Below, one piece after another: positions 25,002 through 45,039 of a DNA stretch of 64,000 nucleotides (the stretch's first letter is position 1; every line of letters begins with the position of its first letter). This DNA comes from Desulfatitalea alkaliphila (GTDB taxonomy: Bacteria > Desulfobacterota > Desulfobacteria > Desulfobacterales > Desulfosarcinaceae): contig NZ_JALJRB010000005.1 of NCBI RefSeq assembly GCF_022968795.1, positions 1 to 64,000 of the forward strand, given 5' to 3'. The notes under the pieces were generated by a model. It did not search any database, was not told where the DNA came from, and worked only from the letters and a program-made list of their open reading frames with translations. The position numbers and the translations under genes were made by a program.

Positions 25002-25092
25002 AGGCCCTCATGTCCATCAATGCCCCAAGGGCGTCCAACCCAACGCCCTTCGACCTCGTCAAAGAAAGTTTTTAGGCCTTCCACTAAGGGCA

Positions 25093-25530
25093 CTATATTT
25101 TCGCACTTCGCAGCAACATTGCGGCTTCCGCTTTTTTGATGCGCTCCATCTGGTCCTGCTTGCGTTGCCTGGCCTGATTGAGCTTGGCCGTCAGATCATC
25201 AAAATCGGCCGGTTTGAAAAGAAAATCGAAGGCGCCCAGCTTCATGCCTTGAACCGCAGCCTCGATGGTCCCATGGCCGGTTAGCATGATGACCTCCAAC
25301 AAGGGAAACTGTTTCTTGATTTCCTGCAAGGTTTCGATACCGTCCATGCCCGGCATTTTGACATCCAGAATCACGACGTCCACATCTTGCTCTTTCAGCT
25401 TTTCAAGACACGCTTCTCCGCTGTAGACGGGTATAACGTTCTCATCTATCTCTTTTAGGCGCAGGCTCAACATCTCGACGAAATCTTCCTCGTCATCGAC
25501 CAACATGATATAACTAGGTGTTTTAAACAT
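25093..25530 (-). CDS. Single-domain response regulator
   Basis: A 145-residue receiver with no output domain. Conserved residues: acidic pair D12-D13, phospho-Asp56 in VVILDVKMPGMDG, Thr in MLTGHGT, Lys in LFKPADF. The last 25 residues form a charged helix (RQRKQDQMERIKKAEAAML) as in the receivers at 56153 and 58925. GGGGGAGG precedes the ATG. It is the first gene of a pair with the receiver-kinase, and probably passes phosphate to or from it. Lack of a DNA-binding domain means action by protein contact. Confidence 0.92.
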   Translation of the reverse strand: MFKTPSYIMLVDDEEDFVEMLSLRLKEIDENVIPVYSGEACLEKLKEQDVDVVILDVKMPGMDGIETLQEIKKQFPLLEVIMLTGHGTIEAAVQGMKLGAFDFLFKPADFDDLTAKLNQARQRKQDQMERIKKAEAAMLLRSAKI

Positions 25531-29226: not shown

Positions 29227-31311
29227 ATGGCCAAGAAATCACCAGCCCGGATCGAAAACCCTTCAACATCCCAACTGCACCGCCATTTGCAAGCGGTCCA
29301 GGAGGGAACACGCCGCTTTGAAAACGCCTTTCAGGGCGTGGCCCGCATGATTCTGGAGAACCAGATCGAAAAAGTGGTTGTCAATGGCCGTACCACCTAT
29401 GATTTCAGTATCTTCCGCAAGGGGAAAAAGCATGTGATCGGCATGTACGATGAGATCAACAGCTTCGTCTCCTACGTCAAGGACGCCGCCGAGGGGGGCT
29501 CTTCCAAGGAGATGGCCTTCGTGCTGGTGGGCGAACCGGGCAACGGCAAGACCTTCTTCGTCGATTTTCTCTGCGCCCGGTACCGCGCCTTTCTGGCCAA
29601 GCCCGGAAACCGCAAATACACTTTCCGTTTCAAGGGAATGGAACGGCTCGGCCACTACGGCCGGATCAACGTCATCGAGTCCCAAACCTACGAAGACCCC
29701 GTGATCCTGGCCATGAACCTGTTCGACGATCCGGAGGAAAACAAGGCCTTTCTGGCGCGGGAAATCGGCTTTGACGACCGCGCCGTCGACACCCTCTATG
29801 AAGATTACCGCCCCTTGGGTGCCTGCAGCGGGTACATTTGGAACGACATCAGGTCCCATGCCGACGGCGACTTGAACCGCATGCTGGACTTCGTGGAGAT
29901 CATCCCGGTGCCGCTGACCGAGAGTCTGGGCACGGTGACCGGCAAGTATCCGGCCAAGGACAAAATCACATCATCGGCCGTGGACCTGCTGGGCGAAGAG
30001 TCGATCCAGCGACTGTTGCACATCACCGACACCAACAATCCCTACCGCTTCGACCTGCGCCGAGGCGCCCTGGCGCGGGTGGCCGGCGGCGGCATCCATT
30101 TCGCCGACGAAATCTACAAGAACAAAAAGGACCTGGTGCAGGTCTATCTGGGGGTGATCCAGAACCGCAATATCGAGATCGACGGCTACAAGTGGCCCAT
30201 CGATTCTCTGATCATCGCCACCAGCAACAACTCGGAATTCAACCGTTTCCTGGCCGAAAAAGAGGAGGCGCCCATCGTCGACCGCTGCCGCATCTGTTAC
30301 GTTTCGCACAACACCAACTACAAGATGCAAAAAGCGCTGACCAGCTACGCCATCGGCAGCGAGGCGCGCACCACCCTGACGCGCGAAGCGCTGCACCAGG
30401 ACCCCAACCTCAATTACGCCGCCTCCGTGGCCACGGTGCTCAGCCGCCTGCCGCGCTCGGAAAAACTGACCCCCGTGGAAACCATGAAGCTGGCCGCCGG
30501 CGAAGTGGCCGGGGAAAAAAGCATCAAGACCCTGGCCGAGGTGATCGACACCCTCAACCAGGAACCGGACATCACCAAGCGGTTCGGCCAGAAGGGACTG
30601 GGCCAGCGCAACCTGGGCCGGGCCGTCCAGTTGCTCACCGAAAGCTCCGAGACCAACGAAGGCCAGTGCATGTTCGCATACGACATCTACAGGGCCCTGG
30701 AGCGCATCATCCTGGATTACGTCGCCGAGGCCAACGACCGGGCCAAGTATCTCGAGGATCTCAAGATCGCCAAGGGCCTCTACCGCGAACGGATCATGAC
30801 CGAGATGTTCAACGCCTACATGGACGAACCCCTGGCCATTCGCAAGGATGTGCTCAACTACGTCAACATGATCATCGGCGCCGATGCGGAGAACCTGGGC
30901 CCGGACAAGATGTGGAAGTACAAGGATCCGCAAACCGGCGAACTGCGGGCCTTGAAGATCGACGAGCGCTTCATCAAAAGCGTGGAGGAGCGACTGGGCC
31001 TCAAGACCGAGGAACAACGGGACACCTTTCGCACCGCCATCCGCAAAATCTACGGCCAGAAGATCTCCGTGGACCCCAACTATGACTTCATGGACAACCT
31101 GGAGCTGGTCAAGGCGGTCACCGATGTGCGCCTCAAATCGGACATCGCCGGCGCCGGCAGCCTGATCGGCGCCCTGGCCAACCGCACCAACGAAGAGAAC
31201 CAGAAGCTTTACGACCGCATGGTGGACACCATGCTCAATAAGTTGGGGTATTGCAGGACTTGTGCGCAGAAGACCATCGAATATTTTTGTACGCAGGAGG
31301 ATGAGAATTAG
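29227..31311 (+). CDS. prkA: PrkA-family serine protein kinase (AAA+ type)
   Basis: The 694-residue protein belongs to the PrkA/YeaG family, with an N-terminal AAA domain and a C-terminal kinase-like part. Walker A is GEPGNGKT (residues 102-109). Family blocks seen include RYTFRFKGMERLGHYG-like sequence, VIESQTYEDPVILAMNLF, GSRGAL-equivalent FDLRRGALARVAGGGIHFAD (Walker B region), and IIATSNNSEFNRFLAEKEE. The ATG at 29227 is preceded by GGGGATC. It heads an apparent operon with a YeaH-like protein, SpoVR and a second PrkA-type protein. In enterobacteria YeaG and YeaH act in starvation and stress responses. Confidence 0.93.
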   Translation: MAKKSPARIENPSTSQLHRHLQAVQEGTRRFENAFQGVARMILENQIEKVVVNGRTTYDFSIFRKGKKHVIGMYDEINSFVSYVKDAAEGGSSKEMAFVLVGEPGNGKTFFVDFLCARYRAFLAKPGNRKYTFRFKGMERLGHYGRINVIESQTYEDPVILAMNLFDDPEENKAFLAREIGFDDRAVDTLYEDYRPLGACSGYIWNDIRSHADGDLNRMLDFVEIIPVPLTESLGTVTGKYPAKDKITSSAVDLLGEESIQRLLHITDTNNPYRFDLRRGALARVAGGGIHFADEIYKNKKDLVQVYLGVIQNRNIEIDGYKWPIDSLIIATSNNSEFNRFLAEKEEAPIVDRCRICYVSHNTNYKMQKALTSYAIGSEARTTLTREALHQDPNLNYAASVATVLSRLPRSEKLTPVETMKLAAGEVAGEKSIKTLAEVIDTLNQEPDITKRFGQKGLGQRNLGRAVQLLTESSETNEGQCMFAYDIYRALERIILDYVAEANDRAKYLEDLKIAKGLYRERIMTEMFNAYMDEPLAIRKDVLNYVNMIIGADAENLGPDKMWKYKDPQTGELRALKIDERFIKSVEERLGLKTEEQRDTFRTAIRKIYGQKISVDPNYDFMDNLELVKAVTDVRLKSDIAGAGSLIGALANRTNEENQKLYDRMVDTMLNKLGYCRTCAQKTIEYFCTQEDEN

Positions 31312-31379
31312 GCCCCTTCGGGGCAGTGTTAAGTTTTAAGTTTTAAGTTTTAAGTTGTTGTATTCTATCGATTTGATGG
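31312..31379 (+). repeat. Gene-end hairpin plus TTTTAAG repeat, copy 3
   Basis: Directly after the prkA stop, GCCCC-TTC-GGGGC (31312-31324) forms a compact hairpin. Three to four TTTTAAG units then run into GTATTCTATCGATTTGATGG. Same order (hairpin, TTTTAAG tract, TCGATT tail) as copy 1. Possible partial terminator between prkA and the YeaH-like gene, with readthrough needed if they form one operon. Confidence 0.65.
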
Positions 31380-31422
31380 TGGGTGAAAATGGCGGGAGAT
31401 TTTGGAGGGGAGGTTGTGTGAG

Positions 31423-32664
31423 ATGAACGGCGGTGGGTTTGGGAAGGATTTGTATGCTTTTTTCGATCTGCGGGTGTTGCAGGGGGTGCGGATGGGGTTG
31501 CCGGGGTATGCGAATCAGATTCGAACCATCGATGAGCTGTTGGCCAAGGATCGGCAGCGGGAAAAGGATGGGTTCCCGCGCAAGATCCGGGTCGGTCGCA
31601 TGATCAAGCCCGGGCGCGGGGGCAAGGACAAGGTGGTGGTGGTGCCCACGGCCAGCGAGGAGAAGCTGATCCACGACCCCGACTTCAGCGACCAGGAGGA
31701 AGAGCAGGCCGGCGGCGGCGCGGGTGACGGCGAACCGGGCGAAGTGATCGGCGAAGAGCCGGTGCGACAATCGGATCGCGGCAGCGGCGCGGGCCCCGGC
31801 CAGGGCGAAGGCGACCAGCACGAACTGGAGTCCTCGGCATACGACCTGGGCCGGATCCTCACCGAGCAGTTCGAGTTGCCCAACCTCAAGGACAAGGGCA
31901 AAAAGCGCTCCCTGACTCGCTACACCTACGATCTGACCGATCGCCACCGGGGCTTCGGACAGGTGTTGGACAAAAAAGCCACCCTTCGCAAAATCATCGA
32001 AACCAACATTCATCTGGGCAACCTGCCCGATGTGAACGCCATCGATCCGGCCGATTTTCTGATCTCCCCCAAGGATATGGTCTACCGCATCCTGAGCCGC
32101 GAGATGGATTACGACGCCCAGGCGATGGTCTTCTTCGTGCGGGACTACTCCGGCTCCATGGCCGGCAAAACCACGGAACTGGTGGTGGCGCAACATGTGT
32201 TGATCTATAGTTGGCTGCTCTACCAATACGCCAACCAGGTGGAGACCCGCTTCATCCTGCACGACACCACCGCCAAGGAGGTACCCGACTTCTACACCTA
32301 CTACAACTCGAAAGTGGCCGGCGGCACCCAGGTGGCAGCGGCCTACAAAATGGTCAACGACATCGTGGAAAAAGAGAGCCTGGCCAAGGATTACAACATC
32401 TACGTCTTCCACGGCACCGATGGCGACGACTGGGACACCGAAGGCCGCGAAGCGATCCCTCAGCTCAAAACCATGCTGCGTCACGCCAACCGCGTCGGCA
32501 TCACCATCGCCCAGCACAGTCCCGGCGGCAACACCGAGGTGGAACGTTACATCCGCAAATCGGGTCTGCTGGAACAATCCCCGGAATTGATCCGGCTGGA
32601 TGTGGTGGATGACGATGCCGACGAGTCGCGGCTGATCGAGGGCATCAGAAACATGATATCGTGA
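31423..32664 (+). CDS. yeaH: YeaH/DUF444 family VWA-like protein
   Basis: Partner of PrkA in many bacteria. The 413-residue protein has a basic N terminus, an acidic Gly-rich middle (about residues 80-140, rich in G, E, Q and S, likely disordered) and a von Willebrand A-like domain with MIDAS motif DYSGSM starting at Asp241, with later HDTTAKEV and GTDGDDWDTEG acidic sites. The ATG at 31423 follows GGAGGGGAGG by 9 bases; an upstream TTG lies inside that ribosome site and is rejected. It sits between prkA and spoVR on the same strand. The VWA domain suggests metal-dependent protein contact, perhaps loading the AAA partner. Confidence 0.92.
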   Translation: MNGGGFGKDLYAFFDLRVLQGVRMGLPGYANQIRTIDELLAKDRQREKDGFPRKIRVGRMIKPGRGGKDKVVVVPTASEEKLIHDPDFSDQEEEQAGGGAGDGEPGEVIGEEPVRQSDRGSGAGPGQGEGDQHELESSAYDLGRILTEQFELPNLKDKGKKRSLTRYTYDLTDRHRGFGQVLDKKATLRKIIETNIHLGNLPDVNAIDPADFLISPKDMVYRILSREMDYDAQAMVFFVRDYSGSMAGKTTELVVAQHVLIYSWLLYQYANQVETRFILHDTTAKEVPDFYTYYNSKVAGGTQVAAAYKMVNDIVEKESLAKDYNIYVFHGTDGDDWDTEGREAIPQLKTMLRHANRVGITIAQHSPGGNTEVERYIRKSGLLEQSPELIRLDVVDDDADESRLIEGIRNMIS

Positions 32665-32714
32665 CTATGCTTTGAAGTGCGACCTGCATGCGCCGTGCTC
32701 CCGAAGGGGAAATG

Positions 32715-34376
32715 ATGGAACTGATCGACCAACATACGAAGAAGATCATGGAGGGGTGCAAGGAGCGGGCTTGGGACGCGGGTTTGCGTTTCGAGACCGA
32801 GACCCTGGAGTATGTGGTGACCAACCGGGATCTGCTGGAACTTTCCCCCAAGGTGATGATCCCCACCCTCTACGACTACTGGGTCCACGATGTGGAGGTG
32901 CTCAAGGGCAAGGGCAAATATGAACTCTATCCCGGCAACCCCTACGAAACCGTGATCAACACCCGGCCGGCCATCTCGTTCTACAACGACAACAACCCCG
33001 ACTGGCTCAATGTGATGATCTTCTATCATGTGCTGGCCCACATCGATTTTTTCCAGAACAACCTCTATTTCCGACACACGCGGGACTACGACTTCACCGG
33101 CGAGGCCCTGTCCGACAAACGGGTGATCGCCAAACTGCGTTCGGAGCACGGCCGTTGGGTGGACTACGTCATCGAATTCAGCCGGGGCATCGACAATCTG
33201 GTGGGCTTTTTCCGCGAGCTGGACCGCCTTTTTCCGGTGCCCACGGTGCAGCAGCCGCCCCGCTTGGACTACTATTTCGACGTCTTTCTGCAAAGCATCA
33301 AGAAGGTCCGCAGCAGCGCGTACATCAAGGAAATCGAGCGTTACAACCAGTGCCTCAGCGACGACAGCGAACTGGGCGAAGCGCATTTTTTCGCCGAGGT
33401 GGACCGCCGTCACCCCGAATTCAAAGCCCTTTACGCCAAGCACAAGGAGCAAAAGCGCCGGCCGCCGGTGGACCTAATGCAGTTTCTGCTGGACAACTCG
33501 CCCTTTCTCAACCGGGAGGAGAACAAGTGGATGCAAACCGTGGTCGAGATCGTGCGCAAGACCTCTCTGTTTTTCCAGCCCCAGATCCGCACCAAGATCA
33601 TGAACGAAGGGTGGGCCAGCTACTGGCACGAAGTGCTCTTCTTCAAGGATGATCGGATCAACGGCCACGAGGTGGACTTTGCGCGGGTCAATGCCGGGGT
33701 GACGGCCATGCCCCGCGTCGGCCTCAACCCCTACGCACTGGGCATGCGCATGTTCTATTTCATCGAAGAGAGCGCCGAGAAGGGACGCTGGACATGGGAC
33801 TATCAGCGCCTCGGCGACACCGGCGACCGAAAACGCTTCGATCGCCGGGACGGTCACGGCCGGGACTATATTTTCGCCGTGCGGGAAAACATGGGTGATT
33901 TCACTTTCATCAATCAGTTCGTCAACCAGGATTTCATCAATCGCCACAAGCTGTTCGTTGCCGGTCGAAGGCTCAACGAAGCCAAGATGGTGTGGGAATA
34001 CTATGTCAAAAGCCGCAAGGCCGCAGATTACCGCCGGATGCTGCTCGACAATCTCTATCATCCGCCCGCCATCACCCTGACCACGGACAGCACGGAACAG
34101 CACGGCACCCTGCAACTGATCCACCGTTTCGAAGGCAAGCCCCTGCTCAAGGATTTTATCGCCAACACCCTGATGGGCATCGAATTTCTATGGGGCGGTG
34201 CCGTCTCCCTGGAAACCCACGAAGTGGTGCCCCGCCCGGTCCGCTCCGACCGACCGCCCCGCAGCGGCACCGCGGTCGCCGCCAAAACCGAACCGGAACC
34301 GCCACGATGGCAGAAAGTTATTTATACGATGCGCGACAGGGAGCTGAAACGGGAGATCGTTCAAACCCTCGACTGA
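32715..34376 (+). CDS. spoVR: SpoVR family protein
   Basis: A 553-residue cytoplasmic protein of the SpoVR/YcgB family. Typical blocks are DYWVHDVEVLKGKGKYE-like sequence, YEMVINT-equivalent YETVINTRPAISFYNDNN, HVLAHIDFFQNN, RTKIMNEGWASYWHE near residues 295-310 and KIMLKFTN-like end region. The HEGWA(T)/NEGWASYWH element is the family signature. The ATG at 32715 is preceded by GAAGGGG at a 5-base spacing; 32712 is also possible. The family is needed for spore cortex formation in Bacillus but occurs widely in non-sporulating bacteria with PrkA and YeaH. Biochemical role unknown. It is followed by a second PrkA-type gene 41 bp downstream. Confidence 0.92.
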   Translation: MELIDQHTKKIMEGCKERAWDAGLRFETETLEYVVTNRDLLELSPKVMIPTLYDYWVHDVEVLKGKGKYELYPGNPYETVINTRPAISFYNDNNPDWLNVMIFYHVLAHIDFFQNNLYFRHTRDYDFTGEALSDKRVIAKLRSEHGRWVDYVIEFSRGIDNLVGFFRELDRLFPVPTVQQPPRLDYYFDVFLQSIKKVRSSAYIKEIERYNQCLSDDSELGEAHFFAEVDRRHPEFKALYAKHKEQKRRPPVDLMQFLLDNSPFLNREENKWMQTVVEIVRKTSLFFQPQIRTKIMNEGWASYWHEVLFFKDDRINGHEVDFARVNAGVTAMPRVGLNPYALGMRMFYFIEESAEKGRWTWDYQRLGDTGDRKRFDRRDGHGRDYIFAVRENMGDFTFINQFVNQDFINRHKLFVAGRRLNEAKMVWEYYVKSRKAADYRRMLLDNLYHPPAITLTTDSTEQHGTLQLIHRFEGKPLLKDFIANTLMGIEFLWGGAVSLETHEVVPRPVRSDRPPRSGTAVAAKTEPEPPRWQKVIYTMRDRELKREIVQTLD

Positions 34377-34417
34377 AACCACAACCCACATTCATGGAGG
34401 GCCCTCGAGGGGGCATC

Positions 34418-36721
34418 ATGATTTACGAACCGAGCAATATCGAAAAGGCGATGCAGCAGATCAACCGGACCAGCGCCGCCATCGACCAGCAGCCACCGGT
34501 GCCTTTCGCGAAATTCCTGGAACAGGTGGTCGAACGGCCGGATCGGTTGATCCGCACCGTGTTTCAGTTCTTCCACGATATGGTCAAAGCGTACGTGGGG
34601 ACCGGCGTGGACGAATACCCCAACGATCCCGAATCGATCAACTATGTGGACTACGATTGCACGCGACTGTTCGTGGAAGGGTCGGACCACCCCTTTTTCG
34701 CCGACCGGCTTTTCGCCAACCGGTTGATCAAGCAGGTGGAGAGCATGCGCCAAGGTGCGCAGCAAAACAAGATCTACATCTTCGACGGTCCCCACGGTTG
34801 CGGCAAGAGCACTTTCCTCAACAACCTGCTGACCCGATTTGAAGAGTACGCCAACACGGAGGAGGGAGCACGCTATGAAACTGTGTGGCGCGTTGATTCG
34901 GAAATGCTGGGCGGCGTCGATGACAGCAACGCCACCCTCACCATTCTGGAGCGGTTGCTGCAGCATCAGCGCGACGCCGAACAAACCCAATATGACCGGA
35001 TCAAGTCCCGCATTTTGGCATCCGGCCACAATGCCCAACTGGAAATCCCCTGTCCGAGCCATGACAACCCGCTGTTGATCGTCCCCAAGAAACGCCGCCG
35101 GGCGTTTCTGGACGAACTGTTCAAGAACGACGCCTTCAAATACACCCTGTTCACCGACAAAGAGTATGAGTGGGTGTTCAGCGAGCAGCCCTGCACCATC
35201 TGCAGCTCACTGTTCGACGCCTTGCTCAAGCGCTTGCAAGACCCGCTCAAGGTATACGAAATGGTGTGGGCCCGGCCCTATATCTTCAACCGCCGTCTGG
35301 GCGAGGGCATCAGCGTTTTCAACCCAGGCGATCCACCGCTGAAGCAGACCGTATGGACCAACGAGATGCTTCAGAATCGCATCAATCGGCTCTTCGGTGA
35401 CAGCAACCAAGTGCACTATATCTTCTCGCGCTACGCCAAGACCAACAATGGGCTTTACGCCCTGATGGACATCAAATCCCACAATATCGAGCGGTTGATC
35501 GAGTTGCACAACATCATCTCCGAGGGCGTCCACAAGGTGCAGGACATCGAAGAAAATGTCAGCTCTCTTTTCATGGCGCTGATGAATCCCGAGGACAAGA
35601 AAAACATTCAGAACATCCAGTCGTTTTCGGACCGCATCGCCTACGTCAACATCTCCTATGTGCTGGATCACAACACCGAAGTGGACATCTACCGCGACAT
35701 CTTCGGCCGCCACATCGACGCCGCTTTTCTGCCCCGGGTGCTGCACAATTTCGCGCGGGTGATCGTCTCCTCCCGTCTGAGCCTGCGTTCCGAGGCGATG
35801 CTGGAGTGGATCGGCGATCCCGACAAGTACCGCCGCTACTGCGACCAGAACCTGCAGTTGTTGAAAATGGAGATCTACACCGGCTACATCCCCACCTGGC
35901 TCAGCGAGGAGGACCGCAAACGACTCACCGCCAAACGGCGCCGGCGCATCATCGCCGAATCGGAAAACGAAGGCAAACACGGCATTTCCGGGCGCGATGC
36001 GATCAAGATTTTCGGCGAGTTCTACAACACCTTCGCCAAAAGCGACCAATTGATCGACATGGCCACCCTGTGCAAATACTTTCGCTCCAAGAAGGAGCTG
36101 CGGGCTTCCATTCCCGACGGCTTTCTGGACTCCCTGCTGCACATGTACGACTATTCGGTCCTGCAGGAGGTCAAGGAGGCCCTGTACTACTATAATGAAG
36201 AGCAAATCGCCCTGGAGATCCAGAATTACATCTTCGCGGTCAACTTCGAACCCGGCGCCACGGTCACATCGCCCTACACCGGCGACAAGATCGAAGTCAC
36301 CGAAGCCTGGTTCAAAGAGTTCGAGAAGCGCATTCTCGGCCCGGGGGCCCTGCCGGTGGAGGGACGCGCCCTGCGCCGCGATGTGCAGAAAGAGTATGCC
36401 ACCCAGACCCTGACCCAGGAGGTGGCCGGTGCCGACAAAATGCTACGCCGCAGCACCCTTTTCAAAAAGCTCAACGAACGTTACATATACAATATCAAGG
36501 AAAAGGTACTGGAACCGTTCCTGGAAAACGAAAACTTCCGGCGGGCGATCAAGGATTACGGTGAACCCGACTTCAAGACCTACGACCGCAAGATCCAGGA
36601 AGATGTCACCTACCTGATCGGCAACCTGGTCGGCAAGTACCGCTATACCCACCAAGGCGCCAAGGCGGTGTGCATCTATGTGATCGACAACAACCTGGCG
36701 CAGGCTTTCGGGGCGTTGTAA
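34418..36721 (+). CDS. Second, divergent PrkA-type AAA serine kinase-like protein
   Basis: The 767-residue protein is longer than standard PrkA. Walker A is GPHGCGKST (residues 124-132), and the N-terminal FFHDMVKAYVGTG region and the general AAA-plus-helical layout match PrkA-like proteins more than other AAA families. The C-terminal part contains ILGPGALPVEGRALRRDVQKE and a helical end. Sequence similarity to the first PrkA in this operon is low outside the ATP site. ATG 34418 follows AGGGGG; 34394 is an in-frame alternative. It ends the operon and is followed by a terminator-like hairpin. It may pair with PrkA as a hetero-oligomer (inference). Confidence 0.82.
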   Translation: MIYEPSNIEKAMQQINRTSAAIDQQPPVPFAKFLEQVVERPDRLIRTVFQFFHDMVKAYVGTGVDEYPNDPESINYVDYDCTRLFVEGSDHPFFADRLFANRLIKQVESMRQGAQQNKIYIFDGPHGCGKSTFLNNLLTRFEEYANTEEGARYETVWRVDSEMLGGVDDSNATLTILERLLQHQRDAEQTQYDRIKSRILASGHNAQLEIPCPSHDNPLLIVPKKRRRAFLDELFKNDAFKYTLFTDKEYEWVFSEQPCTICSSLFDALLKRLQDPLKVYEMVWARPYIFNRRLGEGISVFNPGDPPLKQTVWTNEMLQNRINRLFGDSNQVHYIFSRYAKTNNGLYALMDIKSHNIERLIELHNIISEGVHKVQDIEENVSSLFMALMNPEDKKNIQNIQSFSDRIAYVNISYVLDHNTEVDIYRDIFGRHIDAAFLPRVLHNFARVIVSSRLSLRSEAMLEWIGDPDKYRRYCDQNLQLLKMEIYTGYIPTWLSEEDRKRLTAKRRRRIIAESENEGKHGISGRDAIKIFGEFYNTFAKSDQLIDMATLCKYFRSKKELRASIPDGFLDSLLHMYDYSVLQEVKEALYYYNEEQIALEIQNYIFAVNFEPGATVTSPYTGDKIEVTEAWFKEFEKRILGPGALPVEGRALRRDVQKEYATQTLTQEVAGADKMLRRSTLFKKLNERYIYNIKEKVLEPFLENENFRRAIKDYGEPDFKTYDRKIQEDVTYLIGNLVGKYRYTHQGAKAVCIYVIDNNLAQAFGAL

Positions 36722-36851: not shown

Positions 36852-37409
36852 TCAGATCGCACAAGCGGCCATGATATCACCGACGCGTTGAAAGACATCA
36901 CTCAGCCGCAGCACGCCGACGATTTCCCGATCCCGCACAACCAACAAAGATTGGTGTTTACCGATGATCAGCTGGTGTATCGCCTCGTTCAACGATGCAT
37001 CCTGATCCACAATCTCACCCTCGGTCGGTTTGTGCATGATATCCCGAACGCTGATGGCGGCCGATTTCTGACAAATGTCGTCGATGGGCATTTTCCACAG
37101 GCCGTGATCGGAAATCATTCGGCGGATATTGTCCGCTTTCAGACCGTACAATCCTTCCAACTCTTGAAGATCCCCCAGCCCGCGGTATTTCGGCTCGAGG
37201 GCCTGGAGCGCATTGATCTGGCTCACCTTCCCAACCACCTTGCCGTGTTGGTCCAACACCAACACGGCCCTGTGGCGGTAGCGATCCCTGTCGAATTCTT
37301 GTTGGGCCTTTTTCAGAGCAGCCACCGCGTCGGCAAGTGTGGCTCTGTCCGAAACCGTAACATAATCGGCCAAGGGAACCATCATGTCCTTGACGAGAAT
37401 ATTTTCCAT
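36852..37409 (-). CDS. CBS-pair protein of signalling/transport cluster A
   Basis: A 185-residue protein with two CBS motifs: an N-terminal one beginning VKDMMVPLADYVTVS with RYRHRAVLVLDQHGKVVGKVSQ, and a C-terminal one with VRDIMHKPTEGEIVDQDASLNEA and LLVVRDREIVGVLRLSDVF. About 50 residues containing LEPKYRGLGDLQELEG separate them. CBS pairs bind adenine nucleotides (AMP, ATP, SAM, c-di-AMP) and report energy or ligand state. A clear paralogue is at 58264, also beside an SLC13 transporter and a receiver. Its ATG overlaps the upstream receiver stop (TAATG), so it is translationally coupled. The ligand is unknown. Confidence 0.88.
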   Translation of the reverse strand: MENILVKDMMVPLADYVTVSDRATLADAVAALKKAQQEFDRDRYRHRAVLVLDQHGKVVGKVSQINALQALEPKYRGLGDLQELEGLYGLKADNIRRMISDHGLWKMPIDDICQKSAAISVRDIMHKPTEGEIVDQDASLNEAIHQLIIGKHQSLLVVRDREIVGVLRLSDVFQRVGDIMAACAI

Positions 37410-37918
37410 TAGGCACCTCCCATATTATTCGATGATAGGGCATCCAACTCTTTCAACTTCTGCAGCACCTCGCGAGCCGATTTCATGGTGGGCGTTTTCA
37501 GGATCGATTCCACATCCTGTAAAGCGATCTTGTGCTTGTTCATAACCGTTTTCTTATAGGCTTCCACCAGGACATGAAGCAGGGTCTGCAAGTCACACGG
37601 TTTGGCAAGAAAAGTATAGGCCTGATCGTAAACCTTTTCTTTTTCCGGATCAAAGGAGCCGTGCCCCGTGAGGATAACGATTTCCAACCAAGGGTACGCT
37701 TTCTTCAATTGGACAAGAACGTCCTTGCCGCTCATCCCCGGCATTTTCAAGTCCAGTATCGCCACGTCGATGGGGTTGTTGCGCGCCACCTCGAGGGCTT
37801 TGTCGCCCCTGTTTACGGCGATGACATGGAATTCGCGAATCTGCAGCCTGCGCTTGATGGAGTCAAGCAAGGCCTCTTCATCGTCCACCAACAGTATGTT
37901 AATCTTCTCGTGAACCAC
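37409..37918 (-). CDS. Single-domain response regulator, cluster A
   Basis: A 169-residue receiver starting at GTG 37918 with AAGGAAG upstream. Acidic pair D12-D13, phospho-Asp56 in VAILDLKMPGMSG, Thr in ILTGHGS and Lys in LAKPCDL are all present. A C-terminal extension (about 125-169: NKHKIALQDVESILKTPTM, then REVLQKLKELDAL) is shared with the receiver at 42273 and is not a known DNA-binding domain. It lies between the receiver-SLC13 fusion and the CBS protein on the same strand. Confidence 0.92.
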   Translation of the reverse strand: MVHEKINILLVDDEEALLDSIKRRLQIREFHVIAVNRGDKALEVARNNPIDVAILDLKMPGMSGKDVLVQLKKAYPWLEIVILTGHGSFDPEKEKVYDQAYTFLAKPCDLQTLLHVLVEAYKKTVMNKHKIALQDVESILKTPTMKSAREVLQKLKELDALSSNNMGGA

Positions 37919-38020: not shown

Positions 38021-40096
38021 CTAAGCGGGAAAGCTCATCCACTGCCAGTATCCCAGGATCGTCCAGAACCAAAGCACCGCAAAGGAAATCAGCAGCACGA
38101 CGAACCCGTGAAAAAAGAAATCCTTCATGGTGATCAATTGTTCGCCTGTCTCGTAGTCCTTGGCCAAGGCGAAGATAATGGCGTTGTTGGGAGTGCCGAT
38201 GATCAGCATATGGGCAAAGGACGAGGCAAATGCGGTGGACAACCCGACCATGATGGGCGATGCCCCGGCAATGGTGGCCATGGGCACGCAGATGGGGCCG
38301 ATGGCGGCAACCGTTGCGCCGTCGCTCATGAAGTTGGTCAAAATGCCGGTGAACAGGGAGACGGCAATGGCCAGGCCGGACCCGGTGCTGGTCAAAATGT
38401 CGGGCAGTACGCGAACGAAGGAGTCGGCGATCCACAGGGCCGCGCCGGTGGCCGCCAAACCGGCGCCCATGGCGCTGGCGGCGGCGTAAAGGGCCACCAC
38501 ATCCCAATGGATGGCGTTGATCTCCTTCCAACGCAGGATGCCCAATATGTTCAGCGCCACCAGGGCCAGGATCACAGGCCCGCCCATGCCGAATCGGGCG
38601 GAGAAGGCCGACCACAGGAAAATCAACCCCACCAGCACGGCCGCGGTTTTGTACTCATCGGCGGTCATTTTACCGATCTTCTCGGACTCGCGCCGCACGG
38701 CGGCCGAAACGTCGAGCTGGGTGATCTTGCGTTTGTTGCGGCTCCACAGATAGAAATAGAGGCCGATGAGGATGGACGCCACCGGAACGAAGGGCAGGCC
38801 GTACATCACCCATTGGCCGAAGGAGAGGCTGATGCCGTAGTCGCCCAGAATGCCGATCATGATGGCGTTGCGCCCGCCGGCCGCCGGTGAACCGGGACCG
38901 CCCAGATTACAAGCGTAATTGAGGGTGAGCAGCATCATCACCACCAAAGCCTTGTCCTTGGAAACATTGCCGGCTTTGATGGCGCCCATGTACACCATCA
39001 TGAAAATCGGTGCGATGAAGGCGATCAGCGCATGCTCCGAAAGAAACGAGGCGGTCACCGCCACCATGGGCGCAAAGATCAGGGACATGCGCACCAGCGA
39101 GGTGCTCGGTGACAGCAAAAGAATGCCGATGCGCCGGTCCAGACCGGTCTTGGAGATCGCGCCGGCCATGGCCAGCACCCCGAAGATGAAAAAGACCGCA
39201 TCCTTGGCGTACGCTTTGGCTACCCCGTCCGGCGGCAACACTCCGAAGAAATACATCAGCACGCCCACCAGGAGCGCGGTGATGCCCACCGGCACCGCCC
39301 CGGTTGCCCAGAAAAGGGCCGCCACGAACAGCACCCCGATCATCACGTGGGCCCGCTTCATGGCGGCTTCCGCCCCAAGCAACTGACGGGTCTTTGTGCC
39401 GTCGGGGGCTGTGACTGTTTCACGCAGACCTGCTTTTTCGGCATAGTATTGGGCCACCGTTTGCCCAGGTTTCAAACGGCGGTAGTCGGAGTAACCCAGA
39501 ATCACCTCCTCCTGGGCGCTGCCCTTGGGTGTGGTCAGCAACATTTGCAGCCGCTCGGAGGGTGGCAGGAAATAGAGCAGGGCGAACACCAGGGCGCCAA
39601 TGAGAATGATGCCGGGCCGGGCATTCTGCTCGCCGATGAACCAGGACTTGAAGCTCTTTTTCTCGATCACCGGCATTTCGTGGCGCAACATGGCATAGGT
39701 ACGCTCCTGGCGCGCCGCCTCGATCTTTTCCACCAATTCATCCACGGGGGTCGGTTTTTGCATGTACCCGAACACGTCATGCTTACCGGTGACACGGGCC
39801 GACTCGATGCTGCCATGGCCCGTCAACATGATGATTTGTACTTCGGGACGGATGGTTTTCAGCTCCCGCAGGGTTTGAATACCATCCATCTTGGGCATTT
39901 TCTGATCCAGCACCACCACTTCGGGGTTTTCGTGCCGCACGATCTTAATGGCATCCTCACCATTGTTCACGTCCAGCACCTTATAGCCGCGCACCGAAAG
40001 CTGCTTGGCAAGGGCGGTACGAAACTGGTCCTCGTCATCGACAAGCAAAATCGTGGGTTTTTCATCATTGGGCTTCTTGCCGCCGGCATCAACCAT
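38021..40096 (-). CDS. Receiver domain fused to an SLC13/DASS-family transporter
   Basis: A 691-residue fusion. Residues about 14-130 are an intact receiver: D20-D21, phospho-Asp64 in VVLDQKMPKMDG, Thr92 in MLTGHG and Lys114 in MQKPTP. A linker (about 130-158) leads to the first membrane helix (160-176). A soluble loop of about 65 residues (SERLQMLLTTPKG through LLGAEAAMKR) follows, then some eleven more helices of the SLC13 type with ATGAVPVGITALLVG and NLGGPGSPAAGGRNAIM. The places usually holding SNT anion/Na+ motifs read SEHA (from Ser353) and SDGAT (from Ser591). AAAGGAG precedes the ATG. It follows the Cache kinase and precedes a receiver and a CBS protein. Phospho-control of transport is inferred from the fusion. 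Confidence 0.9.
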   Translation of the reverse strand: MVDAGGKKPNDEKPTILLVDDEDQFRTALAKQLSVRGYKVLDVNNGEDAIKIVRHENPEVVVLDQKMPKMDGIQTLRELKTIRPEVQIIMLTGHGSIESARVTGKHDVFGYMQKPTPVDELVEKIEAARQERTYAMLRHEMPVIEKKSFKSWFIGEQNARPGIILIGALVFALLYFLPPSERLQMLLTTPKGSAQEEVILGYSDYRRLKPGQTVAQYYAEKAGLRETVTAPDGTKTRQLLGAEAAMKRAHVMIGVLFVAALFWATGAVPVGITALLVGVLMYFFGVLPPDGVAKAYAKDAVFFIFGVLAMAGAISKTGLDRRIGILLLSPSTSLVRMSLIFAPMVAVTASFLSEHALIAFIAPIFMMVYMGAIKAGNVSKDKALVVMMLLTLNYACNLGGPGSPAAGGRNAIMIGILGDYGISLSFGQWVMYGLPFVPVASILIGLYFYLWSRNKRKITQLDVSAAVRRESEKIGKMTADEYKTAAVLVGLIFLWSAFSARFGMGGPVILALVALNILGILRWKEINAIHWDVVALYAAASAMGAGLAATGAALWIADSFVRVLPDILTSTGSGLAIAVSLFTGILTNFMSDGATVAAIGPICVPMATIAGASPIMVGLSTAFASSFAHMLIIGTPNNAIIFALAKDYETGEQLITMKDFFFHGFVVLLISFAVLWFWTILGYWQWMSFPA

Positions 40097-40169
40097 CGTT
40101 GACTCCTTTCTGTTTCCTGGCCGTTAAACTTATCAAAAAAAGGTGTTGTCTAAACCAACCCATCACAGA

Positions 40170-41915
40170 TCAACTGCTGGTGGGCAATACGACCGTGAAA
40201 ACGCTGCCGACGCCCGGACGACTTTCGACCTCGATTCTCCCGCCGAACCCCTCAACGATATTCTGACTGATGGACAACCCCAAACCGGTCCCCTTGCCCA
40301 CTTCCTTGGTGGTGAAAAACGGCATGAACACCTTTTGGACCTGCTCGGCGTCCATGCCGACGCCTGTGTCGGCGACACTGACCCGCACCCAACCGTCTTC
40401 CATGCGGGTGCGCAGGGTGATGCTGCCGCCTTCGCCGACGGCATCGCTCGCATTGTTGATCAAATTGAGAAACACTTGTCGCATCAAATCGGGATCGAGC
40501 ATCAATTCCGGCGTATTGGGGTCGTAATCCCGTTCAACGGTGATATTGGATACGCTGAACTCCTGTTCCTTGACCCCGGTAACCACATCTTCCAGCAATT
40601 GACGAATGTCGCACGGTACCAGCTTAGGATCGGTGCGGCGCACAAAGCTCAATATTTTCATTGTGATGCTTTTGGCCCGATACACCGCCTTGTCGATCTC
40701 GTCCAATTCCTTGATAATGGTTTCGGGCGTGCATTCCAGACCGAGCCGCTCATCGAGCATATCCCGAATCAGACCCGCCTCGCTGGCGATGATGGCCAGC
40801 GGGTTGTTTATCTCGTGGGCCACACCGCCCGCCAATTGCCCCACGGCCACCAGCTTGTGGGTGTGGTACAGCTGGGTCTTCAACTCCGCACGATCATGTT
40901 CCACATACTCCGTCCAGCGGATCACCCGGTTCACAATCAGCCAGATGACCACCATCAACATAAAAACCAGGATGGCGCTGCCGGTGACCATGCTGACACG
41001 GATTCTTTCCATCTCCCTGAAAGCCACGTCCCGAGGTTGCCACATGACCAGGCACCAAGGCACTTCCTTGAGCCAGGTGTAGGACAAGAGCATGGTTTGC
41101 CCATTGAATGCGATCTCGGTCACGTCACTTTGGCGATCCATGGGTGGAATGAACACCGCTTGGCTCAACAATTGGCCGAAATCGGCATCGACCGCCTGAT
41201 ATTGACCGGCGCGGTTGATAAGGAAGCCATCCACCCGTTTGCCATGGCTGGTGGTGGTCAGATAGGCATGGAGATTATCGGGATCCAGGCTTGTGCGGAT
41301 CACGTAATAGGCACCATCGATCAGCTGCTTGACGCCGATGGTGAAATGGGGCATGCGCCGCAACCCCAGGTACAGGTCGGTGACAATGTAACTCTGGGGA
41401 TGGGTCGTCAACGCCACATACCAATCTTCCTGACTGTAATCCTTGTTCAGCAAATGGGGATAAGGACCGGAGTAACCGATTTGAATACCGTCGGGATTGA
41501 TGAAGCCGATATCCACGAAGCCGGCATCGGCCCTCACCAGGTTGGCCAGATAGTAGTCCATTTCATCCTGTATGGGCGTCAGATTGAAGTCTTTGGGATG
41601 AAACAGATTGAACACATTGACGATTCGCTTTTGCATGTAAAGCGCGATGGAATTGCGCTGGTTCTCCGTCACGGCCGCCAGATGCAGACTCGCGCTTTCA
41701 CGTACCGATTCGCTGAATTTGTGATTGAAATAAAGGGTCAGGATGGTGATGGGAATCAGATAGGCCAACAGGATGCCGATGGTCAGGGCGCGCTTTAAAC
41801 GGCGATAATATTTTTTTCGAACGCTGTCGTCGGCATAGATGTAGCCGCCTTCGGCCATGGATGGCGATGGGCTCGGGTGAGCCCCGGGGGGGCCGGTTTG
41901 TTCGGTCTGGGCCAT
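40170..41915 (-). CDS. Membrane histidine kinase with periplasmic Cache-type sensor
   Basis: A 581-residue kinase. TM1 is at about 44-64 (ALTIGILLAYLIPITILTLY) and TM2 at about 305-330 (VTGSAILVFMLMVVIWLIV). Between them lies a periplasmic sensor of about 240 residues with dCache-like pattern (ADAGFVDIGFINPDGIQIGY, then DWYVALTTHPQSYIVTDLY and GAYYVIRTSLD). Known dCache domains bind small organic acids and amines. Then HisKA with His367 in GGVAHEINNPLAII and a HATPase with NLINNASDAVG, DTGVGMD and GKGTGLGLSIS. GGAAGG precedes the ATG. It is the upstream gene of the receiver-SLC13 fusion, so the likely sensor of that module. Confidence 0.93.
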   Translation of the reverse strand: MAQTEQTGPPGAHPSPSPSMAEGGYIYADDSVRKKYYRRLKRALTIGILLAYLIPITILTLYFNHKFSESVRESASLHLAAVTENQRNSIALYMQKRIVNVFNLFHPKDFNLTPIQDEMDYYLANLVRADAGFVDIGFINPDGIQIGYSGPYPHLLNKDYSQEDWYVALTTHPQSYIVTDLYLGLRRMPHFTIGVKQLIDGAYYVIRTSLDPDNLHAYLTTTSHGKRVDGFLINRAGQYQAVDADFGQLLSQAVFIPPMDRQSDVTEIAFNGQTMLLSYTWLKEVPWCLVMWQPRDVAFREMERIRVSMVTGSAILVFMLMVVIWLIVNRVIRWTEYVEHDRAELKTQLYHTHKLVAVGQLAGGVAHEINNPLAIIASEAGLIRDMLDERLGLECTPETIIKELDEIDKAVYRAKSITMKILSFVRRTDPKLVPCDIRQLLEDVVTGVKEQEFSVSNITVERDYDPNTPELMLDPDLMRQVFLNLINNASDAVGEGGSITLRTRMEDGWVRVSVADTGVGMDAEQVQKVFMPFFTTKEVGKGTGLGLSISQNIVEGFGGRIEVESRPGVGSVFTVVLPTSS

Positions 41916-42272
41916 CGTTGTCCTTCCCGTCTAGAGTGCCGACCAGGCACCAGGGCAAAAAGCACTTGTGGTACAGCCTCGCACAACTTGAGGTCCCCGA
42001 ATACGATCAGAGCGCATCGTGATCGAACGTTACTAATTAAAAGAAGTTGTCGTGGTTGTCAAAACCAATTTGTCTTTCTGTTGACTTATTTGACGCTTGT
42101 CTTTTAAATAGCTGTATAGAGACAATGAAAACCGTGATATGGCTACCGGCTGATCGCCGTTAATAAGTGCCGTTCATTATCAAAAGGGAGATCACCGGCG
42201 CGCCGTCCACCCGACAAATGGAAATCGTAACGATTCGAATCCGTGACAACCAGCATAAGGAGCCCGTTTCAC
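41916..42272. other. Divergent intergenic region between the Cache kinase and a receiver gene
   Basis: No gene is supported. The plus-strand side holds a probable promoter (42081-42109) and the CACCCGACAAAT-type repeat (about 42208-42228) also seen near 14822. The AAGGAG ribosome site for the receiver is at 42257-42262. Binding sites for the kinase side were not identified. Confidence 0.5.
42081..42109 (+). promoter_or_regulatory. Probable promoter of receiver gene at 42273
   Basis: TTGACT (42081-42086), 17-bp spacer, TTAAAT (42104-42109). Five of six and four of six consensus bases in an AT-rich stretch. Confidence 0.4.
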
Positions 42273-42761
42273 ATGGATGCCAAGATCAATCTGCTTTTTG
42301 CCGATGACGAGGAAAAATTCCTGGAAGCGATGACCAAGCGCCTTGAAGCCCGCGATTTCAACGTCATTGCCGTCACCCGGGGAGACGAGGCCCTGAAAGC
42401 CGCCCGCAACAATCCCGTGGATATCGCTCTGCTGGATTTACGCATGCCCGGCATGCAGGGCGAAGAAACCCTCAGTGCGCTTAAGAAGGAACACAGCTGG
42501 ATGGAAATCGTGATTCTGACCGGCCATGGCAACATCGATTCCGCCGTTGAATGCACCAAAATGGGCGCCCACTCCTACCTGCAGAAACCTTGCGACCTGG
42601 ACCAATTGCTGGATGCCCTCAAGGAAGCCTATAAAAAACGAGTGATGAACAAAACCAAGATTGACGAAGGACGCATGGGCAAGCTGTTGGAAATTTCCCA
42701 TTCCAAATCGCCGATGGAAATTATGCGGAAACTTAAAGAGATTGATGCCTGGCAAACTTGA
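42273..42761 (+). CDS. Single-domain response regulator, divergent from cluster A
   Basis: A 162-residue receiver from ATG 42273 (AAGGAG upstream). D11-D12, phospho-Asp55 in IALLDLRMPGMQG, Thr in ILTGHGN and Lys in LQKPCDL are intact. It closely resembles the receiver at 37409, including the run AARNNPVDIALLDL and the C-terminal ending with KSPMEIMRKLKEIDAW. The two are paralogues flanking the kinase and the receiver-SLC13 fusion. No output domain is present, so it presumably works by protein contact or as a phosphate sink. Confidence 0.92.
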   Translation: MDAKINLLFADDEEKFLEAMTKRLEARDFNVIAVTRGDEALKAARNNPVDIALLDLRMPGMQGEETLSALKKEHSWMEIVILTGHGNIDSAVECTKMGAHSYLQKPCDLDQLLDALKEAYKKRVMNKTKIDEGRMGKLLEISHSKSPMEIMRKLKEIDAWQT

Positions 42762-42840: not shown

Positions 42841-45039
42841 CTAGCCCAACCCAACGATCCTTCCGCCCTGGTAGACGGTGAAAGCCATCAGCCAGGCCAT
42901 ACCGGTGCTGTAGACCACACTGAACAACATCCACCTGACCGAACCGGTCTCCCGACGGATGGCCGCCACGGTGGCCACGCAGGGCAGGTAGAGCAGGACG
43001 AACACCATCATGGCCATGGCGGAGAGACCGGTCATGCCCGAGGCACGCAAAGCGTGCTGCAGCGCCTGATCCGTGGACTCGTCGTCGCTGACGGCATAGA
43101 GCACCCCCAGCGTGCTGACCACGATCTCCTTGGCCACGAAACCGCTCAACAACGCGATGCCGCCGCGCCAGTCCACGCCGATGGGCGCAAAAAAAGGTGC
43201 CATGCCATGCCCGAGGCGGCCCAGCAATGACTGCTCGGCTTGCTCGGCTTGGGTACGCCGATCCAATTCGGACAACGCCGTGTCGCGCTGCGCTTCCAGT
43301 TCGGGCCGCGGGATATCGGCGCCCGCCGCCCGCTCTTCGAACCGGGCCTCGATACGTGCCGCTTCGGCGGCGTGCCGCTCATGGATTTCCGCCGGCCGGG
43401 GAAAGCTGGCCAGGGCCCAGACCACCATGGAGCCAATCAGGATGACGCCGCCCATGCGTTTGATGAATATCTTGCTGCGGTCCCACATGTGGATCATGAG
43501 GCTCTTGAACATGGGCACGCGATAAGGGGGCAACTCCATGACGAAGGGGGCATCGGCACCGCGAAACAGGGTGGAACGGAACAGGCGGCCGGTGGCGATG
43601 GAAAAGACGATGCCGGTCAAATAGATGATGAAAATCACCGTGCCGGCCTTGGCCCCGAAAAAGGCGCCCGCCAATATGATGTAGACCGGCAACTTGGCCG
43701 AGCAGGACATGAAGGGGGTGATCAGAATGGTCAGAATGCGGTCGGTCTGGCTCTCTAGAGTGCGCGTGGCCATGATCGCCGGCACGTTGCAGCCGAAACC
43801 CATCAGCATGGGGATGAACGATTTGCCGTGCAGCCCCACCAGATGCATGATCTTATCCATCAAAAAGGCGGCCCGGGCCATGTAGCCGGTGTCTTCGAAC
43901 AGGGCGATACAGAAAAAGAGAATCAGAATGTTGGGCAAGAACACGGCCACCGTGCCCACCCCCTGGATGATGCCGTCCAGCACCAGCTCCTTGAGCAACC
44001 CTTCCGGCAGCAGATACCCCATGGCCGATGCCAACAGCCCGAATCCCGCCTCGATCCAGTCCTGGGGATAGGCCCCCAGGGTGAAGGTCAATTGAAACAT
44101 GGCCCAGATGAAGAAGAAAAAAATGGGCAGACCCACGATACGATTGGTGAGCACCAAATCGATGTTGCGTGAAATATCGATGCGTTGCCGGATGGAAGTG
44201 GTCAGCACCTCCTTGACAATGCCGGAGATGAAGCCGTAGCGCTCGTCGGTGGTGATGATTTCGGGCTCGTCGTTGAACCGGTCGGCCAGGTGCTCCCGCT
44301 GGCGCCGGGCGGTTTCGAATACCGCCGCCCCCTTCTCACCGGCCACGGCGGCCACCCGCTCCTGCACGATGGTATCGTTTTCGATCAGCTTGATGGCCGT
44401 CCAGCGCGGATGGTAGGGCAGGATGCCCCTCAATTGGGCTGCAAGATCCTGCTGCAGGGCCTCGATGGCCTTTTCCACCTCCGGATTGTAGCGCACCTTG
44501 CGCTTTTGGGGCACCGGCTTGTTGGAATGGGCCAGATCGACGGCGGCGGCAAGCAGATCGTCGATCCCCTTCTGCCGGTTGCCCACGGTCTGCACCACCG
44601 GCACATCCAACAATTCCGACAACTTGGCGACATCGATCTTGGCGCCCCGGGCCGTGGCCACATCCATCATGTTGAGGGCGAACACCACCTTGCAATCCAG
44701 CTCCCGCAGCTGGGTGGCCAGATAGAGGCTACGCTCCAGGTTGGAGGCGTCGATGATATCGATCACTACGTCGGGATGATCGTCGAGGATGAAATTGCGA
44801 GCGACGATCTCTTCGATGGAAAACGGGGTGAGGCTGTAGGTGCCGGGCAGATCGACGATCTTCAGGGTTTGGCCCCGGTACTCGATCAAGCCCTCCTTTT
44901 TTTCCACCGTCACTCCCGGCCAGTTGCCCACCTTTTGGCGGGTGCCGGTGAGGGTGTTGAAGATGGTGGTTTTGCCGGAATTGGGGTTGCCCGCCAGGGC
45001 GATGGTCAGAACGCGCTCGGTCATGTGCGGATCTTTCAT
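42841..45039 (-). CDS. feoB: Ferrous iron transport protein B
   Basis: Inner-membrane Fe(II) uptake protein of 732 residues. The N-terminal G domain has G1 GNPNSGKTT (residues 17-25), G3 DLPGTYSL and G4 NMMDVA (an NxxD variant). A helical GDI-like spacer follows. The membrane part has two Gate motifs including FGCNVPAIMATR and core SCSAKLPVY. A long cytoplasmic loop with many Ala/Arg/Glu (about residues 540-600) lies before the last helices. Its ATG overlaps the feoA stop by 4 bases. Fits anaerobic life, where iron is ferrous. Confidence 0.96.
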   Translation of the reverse strand: MKDPHMTERVLTIALAGNPNSGKTTIFNTLTGTRQKVGNWPGVTVEKKEGLIEYRGQTLKIVDLPGTYSLTPFSIEEIVARNFILDDHPDVVIDIIDASNLERSLYLATQLRELDCKVVFALNMMDVATARGAKIDVAKLSELLDVPVVQTVGNRQKGIDDLLAAAVDLAHSNKPVPQKRKVRYNPEVEKAIEALQQDLAAQLRGILPYHPRWTAIKLIENDTIVQERVAAVAGEKGAAVFETARRQREHLADRFNDEPEIITTDERYGFISGIVKEVLTTSIRQRIDISRNIDLVLTNRIVGLPIFFFFIWAMFQLTFTLGAYPQDWIEAGFGLLASAMGYLLPEGLLKELVLDGIIQGVGTVAVFLPNILILFFCIALFEDTGYMARAAFLMDKIMHLVGLHGKSFIPMLMGFGCNVPAIMATRTLESQTDRILTILITPFMSCSAKLPVYIILAGAFFGAKAGTVIFIIYLTGIVFSIATGRLFRSTLFRGADAPFVMELPPYRVPMFKSLMIHMWDRSKIFIKRMGGVILIGSMVVWALASFPRPAEIHERHAAEAARIEARFEERAAGADIPRPELEAQRDTALSELDRRTQAEQAEQSLLGRLGHGMAPFFAPIGVDWRGGIALLSGFVAKEIVVSTLGVLYAVSDDESTDQALQHALRASGMTGLSAMAMMVFVLLYLPCVATVAAIRRETGSVRWMLFSVVYSTGMAWLMAFTVYQGGRIVGLG

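Follow-up and report, generated by a model that had tools for sequence, protein, structure and literature searches.

The gene at positions 38021 to 40096 of the window (the whole 64,000-nucleotide stretch of DNA analysed here) joins an intact two-component receiver to a complete DASS-fold transporter in a single protein of 691 residues. We somewhat favor reading this protein as a response regulator with a secondary transporter as its output domain, in which phospho-Asp64 would set transport activity directly. Fuller claims could be attached to this reading, namely that receiver aspartyl phosphorylation directly gates a secondary transporter, that sulfate reducers can thereby switch, in a matter of seconds, the import of their terminal electron acceptor or of some other ion, and that the ion coupling is non-canonical; taken together, these strike us as evenly balanced between right and wrong. 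The preliminary description placed the gene correctly and left its strand unstated, which is the minus strand. The features of the gene and its product are as follows.

38021..40096, minus strand: REC-DASS fusion gene, 691 aa, a single uninterrupted reading frame
40096, minus strand: ATG start of the fusion gene, with a ribosome-binding site about 7 nt upstream
40103..40107, minus strand: AGGAG ribosome-binding site of the fusion gene, from the sequence
39719..40051, minus strand: receiver domain, residues 16-126 (D20, D21, D64, T92, K114), from Pfam, conservation and structure alignment
39905..39907, minus strand: codon of Asp64, the predicted phospho-acceptor, from the sequence
39626..39718, minus strand: cytoplasmic linker, residues 127-157, mainly helical in the model
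39557..39625, minus strand: TM1, residues 158-180 (AlphaFold2 helix 161-176, GRAVY 2.40), aligned with TM1 of solved DASS structures
39374..39556, minus strand: soluble insert between TM1 and TM2, residues 181-241, predicted to be periplasmic and ordered
38024..39373, minus strand: DASS/IT-superfamily transporter core, residues 242-691, from Pfam and structural alignment to NaCT, NaS1 and VcINDY
39032..39040, minus strand: HP1 tip motif S353-E354-H355 in the place of SNT, from the VcINDY alignment
38867..38875, minus strand: L5ab motif G408-R409-N410, its arginine beside the VcINDY Na1 site, from the VcINDY alignment
38318..38326, minus strand: HP2 tip motif S591-D592-G593 in the place of SNT, from the VcINDY alignment

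First, both halves of the protein are readily recognized. Pfam assigns Response_reg to residues 16-126 (E 5e-26) and Na_sulph_symp (PF00939) to residues 247-687 (E 7e-33, 114.8 against a cutoff of 27); CitMHS also matches (E 2e-29), and TIGR00785 (dass) reaches E 2e-47 with 161.8 bits, below its curated cutoff of 198.6. Beyond these three families the fusion has no Pfam match at E <= 0.001, and no DNA-binding, enzymatic or SPX domain, which leaves the transporter as the sole output available in cis to the receiver. By sequence, the transporter is closest, among solved structures, to VcINDY and SLC13 proteins, and the N-terminus to receivers of the Spo0F/NtrC type. The intact receiver and complete SLC13-type permease of the preliminary description are thus both borne out, the one by the Pfam match and the presence of D20, D21, D64, T92 and K114, the other by the Pfam match together with a structural alignment that spans residues 145-691.

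Second, the fusion recurs. Among 389 genomes of the same order as the window genome, 32 carry full-length, uninterrupted fusion genes, 33 in all, two of them located on one contig each, 3.9 and 5.2 Mb long. The window gene itself aside, the fusions are 62-81% identical, plus one divergent fusion (G518) at 49%, and the unfused relatives lie at about 49% identity or below (about 43-48% for those compared). Residues 130-160, where the two halves meet, contain neither a stop nor a frameshift in the window gene or in any other of the 33 full-length fusions. A separate genome scan turned up fusions in Candidatus Abyssobacteria SURF_17, in assemblies of Desulfobacterota and in assemblies whose label goes no further than Deltaproteobacteria. 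The search for the same architecture in other genomes that the preliminary description proposed has therefore yielded it many times over, within the order and in Candidatus Abyssobacteria. The gene is no lone oddity but the fused version of a module widespread in Desulfobacterota, whose DASS genes are flanked by receiver, kinase, CBS and REC-CBS genes as separate units.

Third, has the receiver been kept as a working domain? Its residues D20, D21, D64, T92 and K114 are invariant in all 28 distinct fusions compared, its share of invariant columns matches that of the transporter core (42% vs 41% across 13 fusions), and its dN/dS is 0.01-0.12, as computed from unsaturated pairs only, several pairs being saturated in dS. 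These invariant catalytic residues, the conservation on a par with the transporter and the low dN/dS argue that the receiver has been retained as an active domain and a working phospho-acceptor. A pseudo-receiver was also considered and rejected, given that the five phosphorylation residues are kept in 28 of 28 fusions. The linker, with 16% invariant columns, is less conserved than either domain, which counts against the direct-gating reading. In the receiver tree, the fused receivers form one clade (support 100/99), from which a single fusion event followed by inheritance or transfer can be read; the stand-alone receivers encoded just downstream of fusions form another (99/99, 12 rows), with L038 as the one exception. 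The sister group of the fused receivers appears to be the receivers of REC-CBS proteins, at a weak 81/70. The fusion thus arose once among the sampled loci and, by the same phylogenetic and conservation evidence, has been retained for long.

The unfused relatives suggest the raw material from which the fusion may have been made. They begin near fusion residue 130-160, and most of their loci have REC, HK or CBS neighbors. At L061 and L120, 15-18 nt lie between the end of the REC gene and the DASS gene, which share a frame, such that the loss of one or two stop codons would yield a fusion. Judged from these gene arrangements, fused and adjacent receiver and transporter genes stand in a classic Rosetta-stone relation. 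On the other hand, unfused relatives have their receivers as separate proteins or have none directly adjacent, which counts against direct gating; since they cope in this way, the cis linkage is not essential to the family. Six further DASS loci in the window genome served as a control, three of them without REC, HK or CBS genes within about 8 kb, one with distant ones only, and two with such genes nearby, from which the association is neither universal for DASS genes nor confined to the fusion clade. Tandem DASS genes at 56627-58036 and 59516-60922 of the window (both plus strand), 85% identical and with HDA/SNS hairpin tips, are without a receiver. Elsewhere, L129 (G000:C26:30000-47000) contains a 669-aa DASS-like ORF that immediately follows a receiver gene and precedes kinases; the two may be an independent pairing of receiver and transporter. 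At L094 (G000:C45:146000-165900) there is, on the same contig, a second DASS module consisting of DASS-617, a kinase, a Yip1-family protein, a REC-CBS protein and a 497-aa DASS protein.

The transporter half has the fold of its family and a non-canonical site. Our AlphaFold2 model of the fusion (34 rows, mean pLDDT 86, pTM 0.72) shows the two inverted repeats and two hairpins of the DASS fold; its residues 145-691 align with NaCT, NaS1 and VcINDY at Z 33-39 and rmsd 2.5-3.0 over 430-460 residues with 21-24% identity, and its residues 13-140 align with solved receivers at Z about 20-21. In the VcINDY alignment, neither hairpin tip has the SNT signature, residues 353-355 being SEH and residues 591-593 SDG, and an arginine (R409) is found in the L5ab loop beside the conserved Asn. 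All 28 fusions compared keep E354, R409, N410, S591, D592 and G593 unchanged, and other DASS groups of these clusters have SDH/ADG or HDA/ANV tips and likewise the arginine. With the SNT motifs replaced, Na+-coupled anion uptake is not to be assumed; nor is active anion transport assured, a point that counts against direct gating. The "anion transporter" of the preliminary description, then, can be read from the fold and not from the Na+- and substrate-binding SNT motifs, and the protein, by its sequence, is better classed as DASS-fold than named a Na+/dicarboxylate or Na+/sulfate symporter. In VcINDY, N151 of SNT helps bind Na1 and substrate; the Na+-independent exchanger LaINDY has positive residues in place of Na+ (PMC13394699), and in the H+-coupled ArsB, acidic residues near the site, including Asp112 on HP1, are proposed as proton carriers (PMC13381914). 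By analogy with LaINDY and ArsB, Na+ symport would be no more plausible than H+ coupling or Na+-independent exchange. As for the substrate, the clusters and the sulfate-reducing lifestyle make sulfate, or a different small oxyanion, the most likely candidate. The published expression of HRM2_38300 was set aside as an argument for sulfate, as its source contradicts itself, giving excess sulfate in one section and low sulfate in another (PMC5840216).

The extra loop of about 65 residues after the first helix, which the preliminary description considered unusual, is real and predicted to be ordered (approximately residues 177-241, pLDDT mostly 84-91), and since helix 161-176, the first, corresponds to TM1 of the DASS fold, the loop is an insert between TM1 and TM2. 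It is a trait of the family, however, as unfused relatives at about 43-48% identity carry the same insert, which is therefore not tied to the receiver; a role as a fusion-specific adaptor was rejected on the same ground. If the topology is that of VcINDY with the N-terminus in, the insert would lie on the periplasmic side, and the receiver would be cytoplasmic, as needed to meet a kinase.

The genes around the fusion supply candidates for its signaling partners. In the window operon, the kinase, REC-DASS, stand-alone receiver and CBS-pair genes follow one another with gaps of 73 nt and 102 nt and a 1-nt overlap; a further receiver gene diverges from them.

40170..41915, minus strand: double-Cache histidine kinase, 581 aa, first gene of the operon, 73 nt upstream of the fusion, from Cache/HisKA/HATPase matches
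37409..37918, minus strand: stand-alone receiver, 169 aa, phosphorylation residues intact, from Pfam, in its own clade downstream of fusions
36852..37409, minus strand: CBS-pair protein, 185 aa, 1-nt overlap with the receiver gene, from Pfam
42243..42761, plus strand: stand-alone receiver, 172 aa, divergently transcribed, membership in the system uncertain, from Pfam

The core of the kinase is ZraS-like. Its dCache match (E 3.5e-9) is below the Pfam gathering score, and the predicted fold of the sensor aligns with the solved extracellular sensor domains 5ere and 3lif at Z 20-22. Among 41 cluster kinases placed in a tree, those that go with fusions occupy one 100/100 clade of 13; 12 of these have a fusion immediately downstream, and the remaining one is divergent, at a distance of no more than about 1 kb. 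The preliminary description had offered this upstream Cache-sensor kinase as a plausible dedicated donor, a suggestion supported by the co-inheritance of the kinase clade with the fusion; the adjacent double-Cache kinase is, on this phylogenetic evidence, the likely phosphodonor of the fused receiver. Two loci count against direct gating in this respect: the Desulfotignum fusion (L032) has an upstream kinase from a different clade, and at L038 the upstream neighbor of the fusion is a REC-CBS gene.

Further afield, a DASS gene, Cache kinases, response regulators and CBS proteins occur together as they do in Desulfobacteraceae sulfate-uptake clusters, and the wider clusters also hold more DASS genes, REC-CBS and Yip1-family membrane proteins, sigma-54 regulators and universal stress proteins. 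REC-CBS fusions (L034:10976-11887, L049:11780-12775 and others), in which a receiver is joined to a CBS pair, lie repeatedly by DASS genes and represent a receiver output without DNA binding. A small Yip1-family membrane protein recurs beside the 615-aa DASS group (L054:11238-11765 and other loci). Within the window, FeoB (42841-45039, minus strand) adjoins the divergent lone receiver; a stress-type operon of PrkA, DUF444, SpoVR and a second PrkA-like gene (29227-36721, plus strand) is convergent with the REC-DASS operon; and a receiver-kinase hybrid of 387 aa, receiver first (23838-25530, minus strand), adjoins a stand-alone receiver. The genome has dsrA (625.8 bits, above cutoff), and the organism is therefore very probably a sulfate reducer.

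How might the parts work together? The double-Cache kinase would sense an extracellular or periplasmic solute and would phosphorylate Asp64 of the fused receiver, as suggested by the intact chemistry of the latter and by the dedicated kinase clade. The receiver, expected in the cytoplasm at the N-terminus and one helical linker away from TM1, may then change conformation or dimerize in a phosphorylation-dependent manner, raising or lowering the rate of DASS elevator transport. The stand-alone receiver and the CBS protein might conceivably tune the same switch, for instance as a phosphate sink or an energy or nucleotide input.

Alternatively, information could flow in the opposite direction, with the DASS domain binding or moving a solute and thereby altering how the fused receiver gains or loses its phosphoryl group, so as to signal to the kinase, to the stand-alone receiver and to the sigma-54 regulator of relatives, somewhat as DcuB or DctA work with DcuS, or as UhpC does. 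The substitution of SEH and SDG for SNT and the added arginine, invariant across fusions, would suit a transporter turned sensor, and the clusters contain several stand-alone receivers, and those of relatives sigma-54 response regulators; the many receivers at one locus suggest a relay. Yet the complete DASS fold and the strong purifying selection on the whole transporter suit transport equally, receivers normally accept phosphate, with no known role as input domains, and the kinase already has a double-Cache sensor of its own. We regard such a reversal as unlikely.

Quite unlikely, in our estimate, is that the receiver is a localization or dimerization module joining kinase and transporter, with phosphorylation tuning the assembly or lifetime of the complex and not the transport step. 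DASS proteins are dimers and receivers often dimerize upon phosphorylation, the kinase and the fusion are co-inherited, and unfused receivers suffice in relatives, all of which such a role would accommodate; a pure scaffold, however, would not require the five phosphorylation residues that every compared fusion has kept. It is very unlikely, in turn, that the kinases act chiefly on DNA-binding regulators of sulfate uptake and that the receiver fused to the transporter serves as a phosphate sink or rides along as a passenger. Transcriptional control is the only published reading of such clusters, put forward for a related Desulfosarcina cluster with WalR-type response regulators as the proposed agents (PMC11887813), and sigma-54 regulators do occur in the clusters of some relatives. 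Nevertheless, Pfam detects no DNA-binding domain in the fused receiver, the downstream receiver or the REC-CBS proteins examined, nor any DNA-binding regulator in the window operon, and a passenger receiver would decay. An assembly or sequencing error joining two genes has a negligible probability: the window genome assembly consists of 98 contigs and only stop codons separate the REC from the DASS genes in L061 and L120, but full-length fusions in 32 genomes, two of them on megabase contigs, with frames intact at such divergence and a single clade of fused receivers, rule it out.

The preferred reading, direct control of the transporter by its receiver, has consequences beyond this locus. The outputs known for two-component systems are transcription, enzymes, second messengers and flagella; should the receiver govern the transporter in cis, the movement of solutes would itself be an output of the commonest signaling system in bacteria. 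Because sulfate uptake costs sulfate reducers much energy, fast kinase-driven control of it would likely matter for sulfur cycling in marine waters and sediments. Receiver, kinase and transporter form one co-inherited set, which makes the question tractable with two proteins and one substitution.

Finally, the fusion can be set beside known systems. It has the whole DASS fold in common with VcINDY, NaCT/SLC13A5 and NaS1/SLC13A1, and differs from them in its SEH and SDG tips, its L5ab arginine, the 60-65-residue insert between TM1 and TM2 and the N-terminal receiver. Yeast Pho90, Pho87 and Pho91 likewise carry a regulatory domain, N-terminal and cytoplasmic, on a DASS fold, and Pho90 is also among the structural matches. 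In Pho90 and Pho91, the N-terminal cytoplasmic SPX domain limits transport by the DASS protein (PMC12653687), which makes it, by analogy, what appears to be the nearest functional precedent for the fusion; the yeast domain, however, is a eukaryotic SPX responding to inositol pyrophosphate signaling and Spl2, whereas that of the fusion is a phosphorylatable receiver. The DASS/TCS/CBS sulfate-uptake clusters of Desulfosarcina and other Desulfobacteraceae are the same type of locus, with DASS genes, Cache kinases, response regulators and CBS proteins; the model for them is transcriptional, with WalR-type regulators and CBS sensing as a second level, and the section consulted describes no REC-DASS fusion (PMC11887813). 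Group Cii of the DASS proteins of sulfate reducers is divergent and ranges from 474 to 691 aa with no mention of a receiver domain (PMC5840216); judging from the 691-aa length only, its data set may include the REC-DASS fusion unnoticed. A full-text search of open-access literature yielded no description of a receiver-SLC13/DASS fusion, in agreement with the preliminary description, which knew of no characterized example, and a 2023 review of the modulation of bacterial transporter activity mentions neither response regulators nor two-component systems. In proteins of the CheY, CheB, PleD and RpfG types, an N-terminal receiver steers a fused or partner effector with a non-DNA-binding output, as we propose here, except that the output of the fusion would be a secondary transporter, an output that did not come up in the open-access papers searched. 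SLC5-STAC-kinase fusions such as CbrA also join a transporter to a two-component module, with the difference that their transporter is on the kinase, the input side, and that of REC-DASS is on the receiver, the output side. The DASS/TCS/CBS clusters, then, are already known, as is a DASS group with members of up to 691 aa; what appears new is an output domain for a response regulator and a regulatory domain for a DASS protein.
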